Source: Algisphaera agarilytica (GTDB lineage Bacteria > Planctomycetota > Phycisphaerae > Phycisphaerales > Phycisphaeraceae). Taken from it: a stretch of DNA of 64,000 nt. Shown one piece after another: positions 47,897-52,665 of this stretch; position 1 is the stretch's first letter, and every line of letters begins with the position of its first letter. A program made the position numbers and the translations under genes. Under the pieces are notes generated by a model. That model was not told the origin of the DNA. It saw only the letters and a list, made by a program, of their open reading frames with translations, and ran no database searches. Location: the NCBI RefSeq assembly GCF_014207595.1, contig NZ_JACHGY010000001.1:1612001-1676000 (forward strand). Direction: 5' to 3'.

Positions 47897-48427
47897 TCAG
47901 TTATCACCCAACCGGCGTCGCATCTCATACTCGATCAGGTCGGCGACACGCGGGTGGGGCATCGAGTCGCCGGTGGCCACGAAACCATGTTTCTCGTAGA
48001 GCCTCTGGGCGGGCGGGTTGTTCGAGGTAACGTGGAGCCGCAGCTCCGTGAGGTTCATGCGCTGGGCCCACGCCACCGCGTGATCGAGCAGCCGGCCCGC
48101 GATACCGACGCGGCGTGTTTCCGGGTCGACCCACACCGAAACCAGCCAGCCGCGGTCGGCCTGCTGGTCATCAATCACACACGCGGTAAGACCACAGGTC
48201 GAGCCGCCCCGCCGTACGACCCAGGTCGCGCACCGCTGTGGGTATGTCCAGGCTTGGGCCTTTTCTCGCCAAGCCGATTCATCGAGCGCCGATTCAACTT
48301 CGTAGCTCGAGCCGAAGGCCGTCGGGCTTTCGCGTAACGCGCGCAGACGCACATCGCGGAGCTCCTCGGCGTCTTGGGCCGTGAGTTGAACGATCTCGAT
48401 CGGGTCAGGCTCAGAGGCTGCGCTCAT
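47897..48427 (-). CDS. GNAT acetyltransferase
   Basis: 176 residues. The acetyl-CoA site is VSVWVDPETRRVGIAGRLLD, and LHVTSNNPPAQRLYEKHGF is the typical C-terminal motif. It transfers an acetyl group to an amine of unknown identity. Its start overlaps the end of thrS by 17 bases on the same strand, so it is probably co-transcribed with thrS and under the same attenuation. Confidence 0.88.
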   Translation of the reverse strand: MSAASEPDPIEIVQLTAQDAEELRDVRLRALRESPTAFGSSYEVESALDESAWREKAQAWTYPQRCATWVVRRGGSTCGLTACVIDDQQADRGWLVSVWVDPETRRVGIAGRLLDHAVAWAQRMNLTELRLHVTSNNPPAQRLYEKHGFVATGDSMPHPRVADLIEYEMRRRLGDN

Positions 48428-50504
48428 CGCGTTCTTTCACGATGCTCTGCAAGAACTCTTCCAGCGGCACGGCCCCCTGGTCGCCTTCGCTGCGGTGGCG
48501 AACACTGACGGTGTTGGCCTCTTCGTCCTTGCCGCCGACCACGAGCATGTACGGCACCTTGGCTTCCTGGGCGGACTTCACCTTGCCTTTGACGCGGTTC
48601 TTGGACGTGTCGATGTCGGCACGGAAGCCGGCATCCTTGAGCGCGGCCAGGACCTTCTCGCCGTAATCGTTGAACTTGTCGCTGATCGGCAGCACGCGGA
48701 CCTGCTCGGGGCTGAGCCAGAGGGGGAACGCGCCGTTGAAGTGTTCGATCAGGCAGCCGATGAACCGCTCCATCGAACCGAACGGGGCGCGGTGGATCAT
48801 GATCGGGCGGTGCTCGGCATTGTCCGCACCGATGTATGAGAGCTCGAACCGCTGCGGGAGCTGGTAGTCGACCTGCACGGTGCCGAGCTGCCACTCCCGG
48901 CCGATGACGTCCTTCACAACGAAGTCGATCTTCGGGCCGTAGAACGCCGCTTCGCCGGGCTCTTGGCTGAACGACACGCCGAGGGATTCTGCCGCGTTGA
49001 TGCACGCCGCCTCGGCCGCGTCCCAGTCGCTTTCCTTGCCGACGAACTTCGACGAGTCGGGGTCACGCAGGCCGACACGGACGCGGTAGTCGTCCATGCC
49101 CAGCGTACTGAAGACGATCTTCACGAGTTCGATGCAGCCGAGCACCTCGTCGGCCAACTGGTCGGGCGTGACGAACAGGTGGGCATCGTCCTGGGTGAAG
49201 CCGCGGACGCGGGTCATGCCGCCGAGCTCGCCGGACTGCTCCCAGCGGTAGACGGTGCCGAACTCCGCGAGGCGGATGGGCAGGTCGCGGTAGCTGTGTT
49301 TGTCCGAAGCAAAGATGCGGATGTGGTGCGGGCAGTTCATCGGCTTGAGCATGTAGCCCCCGCCGGAAACTTCCGCAGCGATATCGGCCGCGTTCTCACC
49401 GTCGAAGGTCAGCTTGTCGGCCAACTCGGCGCAACACGAGCAGCCGTCCGCCAATTGACGGATGGTCTCGCGTTCCAGGATCGGCGGGTACTGCGAATCC
49501 GCGTAGTACGGGAAGTGGCCCGAGGTGCGGTACAGGTCGAGCTTGCCGATGTGCGGCGTGAAAACCTGCGAGTAGCCCTGGCGTTCTAGGTGCTCGCTGA
49601 TGAACTTCTGCAGTTGATCGCGGACGACCGCGCCCTTGGGCTTCCAGAGCACCAGGCCTTGGCCGACCATCTCGTCGATCTCGAATAGGCCGAGCTGCCG
49701 GCCGATGACGCGGTGGTCGCGGGCCTTGGCTTGTTCGAGGGCTTCCATACGATCAGCGAGGTCGGCCTCGCCGAAGAAGGCGGTGCCGTAGACGCGCTGG
49801 AAGCGGTCGAGGGTGACGTCGCCCTTCCAGTTACTCGCGGCGACGGACATGACCTTGAACGCGCCGATGCGTGAGGTCGTGTCGACATGGGGCCCCATGC
49901 ACAGGTCTTCCCAGTTGCCCGACTCGCCGGTGATGTACCACGACAGGGTCGCGCTGCCTTTTTCGATAGCCTTCTCAGCGTTGTCGAGCTTGTACTTGTT
50001 GTTTTCTTCGCCAAGCTTGGCCATGCCTTCGTCGGTGGAGAGTTCGTAGCGTGAGAACGCGCGGTTCTCTTCCACGATCTTCTTCATCTCGTCCTCGATC
50101 CGGGCGAAGTCGGCCTCGCGGATCGGGGTGTCGAGTTTCATGTCGTAGTAGAAGCCGGTGTCGAGCGGCGGGCCGTAGGCGAGCTCGACGTCGGGGTAGA
50201 GGCGCTCGATGGCCTCGGCCATGACGTGGGCGGTGGAGTGGCGGAGCAGGTAGAGGGCGTCTTTCTCATGCTGCTCGTCGCGCCACTTGCTGCGGCCCTT
50301 CTTGTCGATGCGGGGGGCGGTGACCAACGCCAGCTCGCAGTCGCCGGGCAGCGGGCGGTGGACGTCATACAGCTCGCCGTTGACGCGGGCGCCGATGGCG
50401 GCCTCGGCGAGCTTTTCGCCGATGGACTTGGCGACGTCGTACGGCGTGCTGCCGTCGTCGTAGGATTTTTGCGTGCCGTCGGGCAGGGTGACTTGGATCG
50501 ACAT
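48411..50504 (-). CDS. thrS: Threonyl-tRNA synthetase
   Basis: 697 residues. A TGS domain starts the protein (IQVTLPDGTQKSYDDGSTPYDV), followed by the editing domain (HSTAHVMAEAIERLYP, with His residues for hydrolysis). The class II core has motif 2 around YRWEQSGELGG with MNCPHH zinc ligands before it, FTQDDAHLF, and motif 3 near the end with IHRAPFGSMERF. The C-terminal anticodon domain follows. It charges tRNA-Thr. ATG 50504 is the start; the open frame upstream to 50801 runs through the regulatory leader in another frame. Expression is predicted to respond to Thr-tRNA supply through the upstream attenuator. Confidence 0.96.
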   Translation of the reverse strand: MSIQVTLPDGTQKSYDDGSTPYDVAKSIGEKLAEAAIGARVNGELYDVHRPLPGDCELALVTAPRIDKKGRSKWRDEQHEKDALYLLRHSTAHVMAEAIERLYPDVELAYGPPLDTGFYYDMKLDTPIREADFARIEDEMKKIVEENRAFSRYELSTDEGMAKLGEENNKYKLDNAEKAIEKGSATLSWYITGESGNWEDLCMGPHVDTTSRIGAFKVMSVAASNWKGDVTLDRFQRVYGTAFFGEADLADRMEALEQAKARDHRVIGRQLGLFEIDEMVGQGLVLWKPKGAVVRDQLQKFISEHLERQGYSQVFTPHIGKLDLYRTSGHFPYYADSQYPPILERETIRQLADGCSCCAELADKLTFDGENAADIAAEVSGGGYMLKPMNCPHHIRIFASDKHSYRDLPIRLAEFGTVYRWEQSGELGGMTRVRGFTQDDAHLFVTPDQLADEVLGCIELVKIVFSTLGMDDYRVRVGLRDPDSSKFVGKESDWDAAEAACINAAESLGVSFSQEPGEAAFYGPKIDFVVKDVIGREWQLGTVQVDYQLPQRFELSYIGADNAEHRPIMIHRAPFGSMERFIGCLIEHFNGAFPLWLSPEQVRVLPISDKFNDYGEKVLAALKDAGFRADIDTSKNRVKGKVKSAQEAKVPYMLVVGGKDEEANTVSVRHRSEGDQGAVPLEEFLQSIVKERDERSL

Positions 50505-50557
50505 GGTGGGTCTCGTTTCGCGGCGGAGCGTGGATGATGCGGGGGAGGCAGGATACG

Positions 50558-50581
50558 AAAAAAGCCGCCAGGGTTGGCGGC
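50558..50581 (-). terminator. Attenuator terminator before thrS
   Basis: On the minus strand GCCGCCA (50575-50581), a four-base loop and TGGCGGC (50564-50570) form a 7-bp GC-rich stem, followed directly by TTTTTT (50558-50563). It lies 54 bases before the thrS start and after a threonine-rich leader peptide, so it would stop transcription before thrS. Confidence 0.88.
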
Positions 50582-50624
50582 CGGTGGAGTCTCGTGGGTA
50601 AACGATGAGCTTCAACCGATCGCC
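50576..50624 (-). promoter_or_regulatory. Antiterminator pairing of the thrS attenuator
   Basis: GGCGATCGGT (50615-50624 on the minus strand), the last codons of the leader peptide, pairs with ACCGGCCGCC (50576-50585) at nine of ten positions. The second segment contains the 5' arm of the terminator stem, so the two structures exclude each other. A ribosome waiting on the threonine codons leaves the first segment free and lets the antiterminator form; one that reaches the stop codon covers it and lets the terminator form. Confidence 0.75.
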
Positions 50625-50680
50625 GGGGGGCGGGTGGTCGTGGTCGTGGTGGTAGTGGTGGTAGTCGTGACCAGCATCAT
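50612..50680 (-). CDS. Threonine-rich leader peptide of the thrS attenuator
   Basis: 22 codons from ATG 50680 to TGA 50612-50614: Met-Met-Leu-Val, then 12 threonines in a row, then Arg-Pro-Pro-Ala-Ile-Gly. The threonine codons mix ACC, ACG and ACT while the first two bases never change, which speaks for selection on the amino acid and against a simple DNA repeat. TATACT stands eight bases before the ATG, so the leader messenger starts almost at its first codon. It resembles thrL of enteric bacteria in principle but controls a synthetase gene. Confidence 0.85.
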   Translation of the reverse strand: MMLVTTTTTTTTTTTTRPPAIG

Positions 50681-50688
50681 GTGTAGGC

Positions 50689-50694
50689 AGTATA
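50689..50694 (-). promoter_or_regulatory. -10 box TATACT of the thrS transcript
   Basis: On the minus strand TATACT ends eight bases before the leader ATG 50680. The transcript would be about 180 bases long before thrS itself begins, or end at the attenuator. No clear -35 box is visible. Confidence 0.6.
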
Positions 50695-50907
50695 TCGGCC
50701 GATCGGGGCGTCGGGGTGACCGGGCGTGGGACTCGGCCCCATAAAACCAACCCCCGCCCTGTGGCGTTCACAGGAATTCCCCGGAACTGCCAAATCCTCA
50801 AAAATAACTTCCGACGCGAAATAGAAGCCTGTTTCGTGCGTCTTACCCCCAGGCGGGCCTGCCCGGGTGGGTGATTTGTGCCCTTGGATTAACGAAAGAG
50901 TGATGAC

Positions 50908-51102
50908 ATGGCCTACAGCATTGAACTCCGCCAGCGTGTGCTTTCCTCAATCGAAAAAGGACTAAGCAAGCAGGAAATCGCCCGCCGGTTCGACCTGTCC
51001 TACGGCACGGTCTGCTTGTGGCACAAGCTCGCCCAACACGGCATCACCTCCCCCGGCATCCCCGGACCCAAAAAATTCCAACCCGTCGCGGCTCACCACT
51101 AA
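50908..51102 (+). CDS. Small helix-turn-helix protein, IS630-type transposase N-terminus
   Basis: 64 residues. YSIELRQRVLSSIEKGLSKQEIARRFDLSYGTVCLW is the DNA-binding part found at the start of IS630-family transposases. The catalytic DDE part is absent and no terminal inverted repeats are seen nearby. It could be a remnant of an insertion element or a domesticated DNA-binding protein. A GAAAGAG site precedes the ATG. It overlaps the end of the convergent sigma-factor fusion by four bases. Confidence 0.55.
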   Translation: MAYSIELRQRVLSSIEKGLSKQEIARRFDLSYGTVCLWHKLAQHGITSPGIPGPKKFQPVAAHH

Positions 51103-52589
51103 CCCAGCGACTCCCGCCGGGGCTCGGCCAGCCACTGCAAGGCATCACTCACCCACGTTAAGCCCGGCGTCCACTCGGGCACGTGGCGATAGCCGTGCAC
51201 CGTATTGAGGTACAGCACCCGGCCACGGCCGCAGTGCCCCCCCACCAGGTACGGCGTCTTGCACGCCATGTCGCCAAACTGCGTCTGTTCACGCTGCGCG
51301 ATCAACGTCGCGTCGGCGACGGGCGTGAACCGCGGACCACACTCGCCGCACCTGAACGTCTTGCCCGCAAACCAACTCGGCGTCGCGGGGTGATCGACCA
51401 GGACGGTGATCTGGCCGTTGTGGTTGTTCTCCTGCCCACCCGGACAGGGTTGGCCGCGGATCTCGACGTAGGGGCAGTAGCTCATCGTCGGCGTCGCGCA
51501 CAGACTCAACGCCATGACATCGGGGTGCCCCGGGCCGAGGTGGTTGGTCCCCAAAAAACCATCATTGAAAAAACCCACACCCGCTTCGACCGCGAGGCGG
51601 ATGTTGTGCAGCACGTCTTCGCGCTGGCTGAAACTAAGGCCCACAACGATGACGTCCAGGGTCTTAAGGCATTCCAGATCGGTCCCGTCGATGAGGCCGT
51701 CGCAGAAGGCGTAGTCGCGGATGACGCGTTCGACCATGCCGACGTTGTCGGTGCCGGGGTCGATGATGGAGATGAGTTCGAAGCGTGGGTCGGCGACGAA
51801 GCGCATGAAGAACGCGGCCTCGTCTTCCTTGGGGACGAACGGGCCGTTGGTGCACTCGGTGATCTGGGCGTGATGGCTGATCAGCGTGCCCACCCGGATC
51901 GGCCGCGACCACCCCGGAAAGGTGAGCGGGGCCGACTCGTCGCCACGGGTCGGAGCCTGGGGCCACTGCGGGGCGTGACGCATCGGGTCGTTCACGATCT
52001 GATCGACCAGGGCCTGGCGGGTGAGGTCCTCGATTTCCTCGATGCCCATGTCCTTGAGCACGTCCGCTGTCTGGTCGAGGCCGCGCTGGAGCTGCCGGTG
52101 GACGGTCGACAGGCTCGTGCGCGACTTGCCCGCCAGGACGCGGAGCGGGGTGTAGCGGTGGTAGCGTTCGAGGAGCAGCTCGCGCAACGGCTCGTCGATG
52201 TTTTGCAGCGCTTCGTCGAGCTTGGACTGCACGCGGTGCCGGCTGGCGGGCGACGGGTCGGGCGGGTCCAGCAGGCCGGGGTGCTTCTGCAGGAGTTCGC
52301 GGTGACGCACCGCCTTGCGGATGTGATCGACGCAGACCGAGCGGGCGGTGGTTTTCAGCCAGGCCCCGAGGTGGCTGCGGATCTTCGGGGCGTGGCGGAG
52401 CAGGCGCAGGAAGGTTTCCTGCGCGGCGTCCTCGGCTTCGTGCGGGTCGGCGTGGTACCGCCGACAGACCGACATCACCGTGGGCCAATACGCCTCGATG
52501 ATGCGATCGATCGCTTGCGGGTCTTTCTCCTGCAGGTAGCGGATCAGACGTTCGTCCAGCGGCGGGGTGGAATGGGGGGTATTGGCCAT
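51099..52589 (-). CDS. ECF sigma factor fused to a glutamine-amidotransferase-like domain
   Basis: 496 residues, far longer than a normal ECF sigma factor (about 190). Sigma region 2 is seen at about 18-90 (AIDRIIEAYWPTVMSV, DAAQETFLRLLRH, WLKTTARSVCVDHIRK), region 4 at about 120-180 (IDEPLRELLLERYH, SRTSLSTVHRQLQRG). From about 230 a different domain begins: RPIRVGTLISHH, LKTLDVIVVGLSFSQRE, NDGFLGTNHLGPGHPD and GRGRVLYLNTVHGYRHVPEW. This looks like a ThuA or class I amidotransferase-like fold. Several Cys and His (FRCGECG) may bind metal. It may be a sigma factor controlled by its own sensory domain. ATG 52589 is preferred to 52610. Confidence 0.8.
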   Translation of the reverse strand: MANTPHSTPPLDERLIRYLQEKDPQAIDRIIEAYWPTVMSVCRRYHADPHEAEDAAQETFLRLLRHAPKIRSHLGAWLKTTARSVCVDHIRKAVRHRELLQKHPGLLDPPDPSPASRHRVQSKLDEALQNIDEPLRELLLERYHRYTPLRVLAGKSRTSLSTVHRQLQRGLDQTADVLKDMGIEEIEDLTRQALVDQIVNDPMRHAPQWPQAPTRGDESAPLTFPGWSRPIRVGTLISHHAQITECTNGPFVPKEDEAAFFMRFVADPRFELISIIDPGTDNVGMVERVIRDYAFCDGLIDGTDLECLKTLDVIVVGLSFSQREDVLHNIRLAVEAGVGFFNDGFLGTNHLGPGHPDVMALSLCATPTMSYCPYVEIRGQPCPGGQENNHNGQITVLVDHPATPSWFAGKTFRCGECGPRFTPVADATLIAQREQTQFGDMACKTPYLVGGHCGRGRVLYLNTVHGYRHVPEWTPGLTWVSDALQWLAEPRRESLG

Positions 52590-52665
52590 GGGTCCGAAAC
52601 CTGCGCACACAGTGTGACAACTTCAAGACGTTCGGCCCAGTGTTTTTTCCGTTTGGATGTGCAGA

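Follow-up and report, generated by a model that had tools for sequence, protein, structure and literature searches.

The window analysed here is a stretch of 64,000 nucleotides from Algisphaera agarilytica, in which the gene for threonine--tRNA ligase (thrS) is preceded, on the minus strand, by a short threonine-rich open reading frame (ORF) and a terminator hairpin. The features of this locus, in order of increasing position, are the following:

47897-48427, minus strand: GNAT-family acetyltransferase gene, whose ATG overlaps the 3' end of thrS.
48411-50504, minus strand: thrS, threonine--tRNA ligase of 697 aa, the putatively regulated gene (NCBIfam TIGR00418 equivalog and Pfam).
50582-50558, minus strand: intrinsic terminator, with a GC hairpin (50582-50563) and six T (50563-50558).
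50585-50576, minus strand: segment 3, ACCGGCCGCC, common to the predicted antiterminator and the 5' arm of the terminator.
50624-50615, minus strand: segment 2, GGCGATCGGT, predicted 5' strand of the antiterminator, within the last codons of the leader.
50680-50612, minus strand: leader peptide ORF, MMLVTTTTTTTTTTTTRPPAIG, 22 codons with 12 consecutive Thr codons.
50694-50689, minus strand: -10-like box TATACT, recognised from the sequence, 8 nt upstream of the first leader ATG.
50908-51102, plus strand: small ORF with an IS630-type transposase helix-turn-helix alone (Pfam).
51099-52610, minus strand: gene for a protein of 503 aa that carries sigma-70 region 2 at its N-terminus and has no Pfam match over its long C-terminal part.

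The thrS product scores 630 bits against the TIGR00418 equivalog model (cut-off 384) and carries the Pfam TGS, SAD, class II core and anticodon domains. The GNAT protein shows weak similarity to rimI, below the cut-off, and its gene would come under the same control as thrS if, as we presume, the two are co-transcribed. On the other side, the plus-strand ORF at 50908-51102 is probably a transposase remnant. As the nearest upstream gene on the same strand ends at 51099, with this plus-strand ORF in between, the gene layout makes it most likely that the leader is the opening part of the thrS transcript.

The leader ORF reads ATG ATG CTG GTC, 12 ACN codons and CGC CCC CCG GCG ATC GGT TGA, and encodes the peptide MMLVT12RPPAIG, in which threonine is specified by ACC seven times, ACG three times and ACT twice. 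Its stop codon is separated by 29 nt from the hairpin, GGCCGCCA-ACCC-TGGCGGCT (50582-50563, minus strand), and the last T of the terminator (50558) by 53 nt from the thrS ATG (50504). Both the region and the hairpin are more stable than their shuffles (z -2.90 and -2.98, respectively). An earlier note on this DNA had described a TATACT box, a Thr frame, a pairing segment, a hairpin with six T and thrS, and each of these parts lies where that note had placed it, on the minus strand. The pairing it had proposed between the end of the frame and the hairpin arm also holds: segments 2 and 3 pair at nine of their ten positions, with one A-C mismatch, at -12.7 kcal/mol for the ten bases and -16.4 kcal/mol with flanks. 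Two elements typical of leader-peptide attenuators are present in the window itself, namely a short ORF rich in cognate codons (12 Thr codons before thrS) and an intrinsic terminator between that ORF and the gene.

We then considered how unusual this arrangement is within the genome. In the 4.17 Mb genome (G000, six contigs), runs of eight ACN triplets gave five overlapping matches, all inside the leader ORF, which is the only place with such a run. Runs of six were found at 11 further places, all of which were inspected; at none of them does a short Thr-rich ORF precede a terminator, and the two with a GTG-started Thr-rich ORF lack the terminator. Moreover, a scan for short amino-acid-biased ATG ORFs with a terminator, covering 1.6 Mb plus the window (approximately 40% of the genome), placed the leader locus at the top with a score of 2.0, followed by a score of 1.5, and yielded no comparable second leader peptide within that scanned part. 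These observations speak against a chance encounter of a low-complexity ACN tract with an ordinary terminator, a reading that could otherwise appeal to the GC-rich genome, to the 11 places with shorter runs, and to the presence of ACN x8 somewhere in 30 of the 43 relatives searched, in many of them away from thrS and in some as plain repeats. The uniqueness of the Thr run is a property of the A. agarilytica genome and not a general one. In the G193 assembly, contig C13 carries long pure ACG repeats at its end and internally, and thrS is on contig C27.

Conservation of the peptide and of the stems in relatives, on which the earlier note had staked its interpretation, was evaluated in 111 thrS upstream regions of at least 200 nt from genomes taken to belong to the order Phycisphaerales (families f1, 39; f2, 37; f3, 20; f6, 8; f5, 6; f4, 1), comprising all readable genomes of f1, f4, f5 and f6 and a chosen part of those of f2 and f3. 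Matches to thrS had been obtained in 55 of 61 genomes of one set and 197 of 201 of another, and in six of seven genomes searched again with the N-terminal part; G106 was left out, having no N-terminal thrS match, as was the congener G002, in which only 25 nt of contig precede the thrS match, while the assembly of G001 gave no thrS match and a simple repeat alone. By eye, the Thr run with which another G002 contig (L328) opens appeared to be unrelated. Leaders were defined as ATG-started ORFs no longer than 40 codons that lie within 500 nt of thrS and contain a stretch of 10 codons with five or more Thr. Such ORFs were found in 48 of the 111 genomes, across six families (35 of the 111 at seven or more Thr), and admitting GTG and TTG starts brought the number to 51 (f2, 23/37; f1, 17/39; f5, 5/6; f6, 3/8; f3, 2/20; f4, 1/1). 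On the reverse strand, taken as control, no region qualified at either five or seven Thr, and two of the 111 did at four; dinucleotide shuffles gave 0.2 per 111 at five Thr and 0.0 per 111 at seven, and the same ORF test for the other 19 amino acids reached at best 6 of 111, for Ala.

The 51 leaders have a median length of 20 residues (10-31) and a median of eight Thr (5-14); 19 of them are displayed in alignment A4. The third positions of their Thr codons are mixed (ACC 212, ACG 164, ACT 42, ACA 17), and the argument made earlier from the window alone, that such mixing speaks against a plain repeat, extends to the whole set. The genome-wide search for ACN runs revealed a further leader in G036, of 14 consecutive Thr, and a wider rescan of 29 loci added one in G007; 28 of these loci were drawn from the 60 leaderless regions, 25 of the 28 being covered over 1500 nt. 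In both genomes, leader and terminator lie approximately 610 nt upstream of thrS, and the total in the order is 53 leaders. In these two genomes (loci L004 and L005), the stretch between attenuator and thrS is unusually long, with no evident gene within. No leader was detected in 58 of the 111 regions within the reach searched; in the remaining 32 leaderless regions the ORF test reached at most 500 nt and more distant leaders may be missed, while G005, G022 and G028, from the same family as A. agarilytica, have none even over 1500 nt. Outside the order, a leader was found in none of 20 genomes of Planctomycetota. In addition, 75 of 80 named loci, mostly from other groups, had readable upstream DNA and were analysed by the same ORF rule from the estimated gene start, by which 73 have no Thr-rich leader; L119 has a GTG-started ORF with six Thr and no terminator, and L071 (RHKP01000022.1, a MAG contig labelled Cyanobacteria) has a Phycisphaerales-like thrS with leader and terminator, its bin label being probably wrong and the contig mis-binned.

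The leader-to-thrS distance is spread over all three frame classes (24/14/13), and the leader-to-thrS frame is therefore not conserved, which indicates that the Thr tract does not extend ThrS at its N-terminus. An extension rich in His and Asp is what the tract would encode in the thrS frame, and this frame is indeed open for 99 codons upstream of the likely start, to 50801, where the ORF caller places its start; likewise, a plus-strand ORF of 56 aa with a Val run could suggest that the tract encodes a Val-rich peptide. However, the full-length ThrS matches listed begin at residues 1-5 of the protein read from the 50504 start, the query lacking the extension, and most leaders have a -10-like box right before the start of the Thr frame and a nearly fixed distance between stop and terminator, so that we give these coding explanations practically no weight. 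As an annotation matter, an automatic gene caller could add a false His-rich N-terminal extension to ThrS at 50505-50801 (minus strand), in which the Thr tract is read in another frame.

A terminator, composed of a GC hairpin and a T-rich tail, follows 49 of the 51 leaders, starting 22-48 nt past the stop (median 30), the leaders of G202 and G194 having none by the detector used. Among the 60 leaderless regions, seven show a hairpin resembling a terminator within the final 300 nt, weak by eye. The stem sequences differ from group to group, and the compensating changes that the earlier note had suggested looking for were found in both groups tested. In f1+f6 (17 rows), 90.7% of the cells are paired and five of the ten pairs changed on both sides, with a covariation score of 0.271 compared to 0.182 in shuffles; in f2 (20 distinct rows), 92.5% of the cells are paired and six of the ten pairs changed on both sides, with a score of 0.283 compared to 0.144. 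Neither score was reached by any of 500 shuffles, and sliding the partner lowered all five measures, in f1+f6 as well as in f2. Some measures were weaker: for f1+f6, 26 of 500 shuffles had at least as many pairs with both sides changed, and 312 of 500 at least as many further pair types; for f2, 29 of 500 equalled or exceeded the further pair types. Alignment A2 holds 17 of 20 rows, G024, G025 and G030 being left out for an unclear terminator register and the misregistered G101 being kept. With a Thr ORF in 51 of 111 regions, a terminator after 49 of these, covarying stems and mixed third positions, conservation at the sequence level already refutes the chance explanation, whose probability we regard as negligible.

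The two alternative structures were then compared by folding in 49 genomes, with G202 and G194, which lack a terminator, left out of the duplex, ribosome-position, arm-exchange and shuffled-segment-2 tests. The plain duplex test (RNAduplex, leader-end segment against the short terminator arm) gave p < 0.05 in 18 of the 49 genomes, with a median p of 0.096, and the position-aware and permutation tests were stronger. In the ribosome-position model, in which 12 nt from the first A-site base are masked, the arm in nascent RNA formed on average 9.7 pairs with upstream RNA for a mid-run stall, 7.5 with the upstream RNA shuffled, and 4.1 once the ribosome had reached the stop codon, this last decrease being partly trivial because less RNA is then free. 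Pairing exceeded the shuffled mean in 44 of the 49 genomes (Wilcoxon p 7e-8), 13 of which reached p < 0.05 singly. For the complete RNA, the mean terminator probability dropped from 0.93 for a ribosome at the stop to 0.50 for a stalled one, 22 of the 49 genomes crossing 0.5, and it was 0.87 for a stalled ribosome when segment 2 was shuffled (p 6.5e-6). Stalled native leaders fell below 0.5 in 24 of 49 cases, against 5.0 expected, including G024 and G025, in which the terminator probability is 0 in both states, probably owing to a wrong register. Moreover, permuting the arms among genomes weakened the pairing, both over all 49 (z -7.4, 0/20000) and within f1+f6 (z -5.5, 0/20000) and f2 (z -3.1, 27/20000), the five genomes of f5 alone giving no significant signal (z -1.5). 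Segment 2 and the 5' arm of the terminator hence coevolve over the 49 genomes.

Altogether, the modelled folds support a competing antiterminator for the 49-genome set, as the earlier note had proposed, whereas for the window taken alone the case is marginal (p 0.52 in the duplex test and p 0.16 in the ribosome-position test). There, nascent RNA that ends at the loop adopts the antiterminator fold (-19.1 kcal/mol) wherever in the Thr run the ribosome stalls, except at the last codon; once the RNA is complete, minimum-energy folding gives the terminator for each stall position tried, with a probability of 0.99 for a mid-run stall. A switch in the window would therefore have to act kinetically, as attenuators in general do. 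The advantage of the terminator over the antiterminator at equilibrium in the window would also suit a hairpin that works as a constitutive terminator or processing site, e.g., as the 3' end of an upstream transcript, with the Thr peptide having a different function, perhaps as a small stable protein or in translational coupling. Nevertheless, terminators track leaders (49 of 51 regions with a leader vs 7 of 60 without), the match between segment 2 and the arm beats shuffles and coevolves, and the distance from the leader stop to the thrS match, 84-613 nt and above 100 nt in 49 of 53 cases, is far for simple coupling. Such a role for the hairpin is accordingly improbable.

Regarding the start of the message, a generic sigma-70 scan of the window returned no promoter pair, i.e., no convincing -35. 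From the TATACT box at 50694-50689, transcription would be expected to start at approximately 50682, leaving a 5' UTR of 0-3 nt. Across the order, 31 of 49 leaders have a TANNNT whose last base lies 4-9 nt upstream of the start codon, against a background of 2.1%, and seven further genomes of the same 49 have one at 10-11 nt; G131 and G186, with too little upstream DNA, were left out of this count. As a Shine-Dalgarno-like tetramer precedes only one of the 49 leaders, the -10-like box near the start codon suggests a message with almost no 5' UTR, and the leader mRNA is probably leaderless, or nearly so, from its predicted start site. One may go further and propose an order-wide class of leaderless attenuators, in which the leader ORF stands at the very 5' end of the transcript and the ribosome enters on nascent RNA, independently of a Shine-Dalgarno sequence, and must match the pace of RNA polymerase within approximately 100 nt; we consider this generalisation plausible, and on balance slightly more doubtful than credible. 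If true, these planctomycetes would have tight transcription-translation coupling, with a switch that may report the capacity for leaderless initiation in addition to the charging of Thr-tRNA.

Overall, the locus is very probably a ribosome-mediated transcription attenuator that would set thrS expression by the supply of Thr-tRNA, and the interpretation given in the earlier note is supported by the conservation of the leader, the covariation of the terminator and the coevolution of segment 2 with the terminator arm. From the ORF, the terminator, their conservation and covariation and the position-dependent folding, all established by sequence analysis, we infer the following course of events. 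Transcription would start at, or within approximately 3 nt of, the leader ATG, and the leader would be translated from a (nearly) leaderless mRNA. An ample supply of charged tRNA-Thr would let the ribosome reach the stop codon and mask segment 2, allowing segment 3 to pair with segment 4 as the terminator, and RNA polymerase would halt near 50558. A shortage of ThrRS activity or of threonine would stall the ribosome within the Thr codons and leave segment 2 free to pair with segment 3 as it emerges, with readthrough into thrS. The outcome would be negative feedback on thrS by the product of its own enzyme.

The cell compartmentation of Planctomycetota has long been debated. An attenuator of this kind works only if ribosomes trail RNA polymerase closely, so that a working one would be direct functional evidence for transcription-translation coupling in this phylum, and we see the main value of the thrS attenuator in offering a test of it. 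In addition, the 53 leaders represent many natural variants of one switch, on which the rules of attenuation and of leaderless initiation may be tested.

Other ways of controlling thrS must also be considered. T-box RNAs read tRNA directly, without translation, and the thrS operator of E. coli type, bound by ThrRS, is translational and requires neither a terminator nor Thr codons. The latter is established for thrS in E. coli. The T-box is established for thrS in Firmicutes, according to a survey that included one planctomycete genome, without a T-box (PMC2494555). The Firmicutes thrS T-box shares with the planctomycete locus the gene, the signal proposed for it (tRNA-Thr charging) and a premature terminator, but none was found in the planctomycete set: the T-box covariance model matched neither the window at the gathering threshold nor, at E <= 10, its part 50480-50760, and at E <= 1 it matched none of 20 leader-bearing relatives. 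With the Thr codons and terminator being dispensable to an E. coli-type operator, either form of control is highly unlikely to explain the locus. In the same search of 50480-50760, an Rfam suhB match at E 0.1 was below the cut-off, seems to fit mainly the terminator, and was rejected.

Among the known systems closest to the attenuation proposed here is that of the enteric thr operon (thrL-thrABC; Rfam RF00506, Thr_leader), as both have a Thr-rich leader ORF and mutually exclusive antiterminator and terminator. However, here thrS and not thrABC would be regulated, the run of the window leader consists purely of Thr codons, whereas the enteric leader mixes Thr and Ile codons, and the planctomycete leaders lack a Shine-Dalgarno sequence and have a -10-like box beside the ATG. 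The RF00506 model gave no match in the window, and its cut-off of 55 bits was not reached in any of the 20 relatives; sub-threshold full-length matches at the leader were obtained in two of them, L162 (519-645; 31.3 bits) and L198 (551-658; 25.7 bits), which possibly reflect convergence.

Attenuation of aminoacyl-tRNA synthetase genes by leader peptides is itself described for pheST of gamma-proteobacteria (PMC1262725) and for trpS, leuS and alaS of Streptomyces (PMC8079986); the principle is the same, and the amino acids, genes and phyla differ. The latter paper also predicts for Streptomyces lividans TK24 a thrL before thrS, with 18 residues, two Thr, no U-rich tail or clear terminator, and a leaderless transcript (PMC8079986). 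Gene and amino acid are thus the same, and the leaderless S. lividans leaders resemble the start proposed here for planctomycetes, which differ in having 5-14 Thr in each leader, a terminator in 49 of 51, and a host of another phylum. Because of this prediction, weak as it is, thrS is not a wholly new target of leader-peptide attenuation. No report of leader-peptide attenuation in Planctomycetota was found in the open-licence literature searched, a scope outside which most subscription papers fall. A 2010 survey of premature terminators gives leader peptides as known in Proteobacteria and Actinobacteria only, ermC excepted, and adds histidine leaders of bacilli (PMC2965389). Planctomycetes figure in a 2016 paper on leader genes with regard to leader-gene distances, threonine and thrS being absent from its main text (PMC4833913). 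Altogether, the comparison indicates that the locus most likely represents classical Thr-tRNA-sensing attenuation of thrS, in which the host group is new and the leader ORF probably leaderless; attenuation would thereby be carried to a phylum with no earlier report in the literature searched, on a synthetase gene for which one weak earlier prediction was found.
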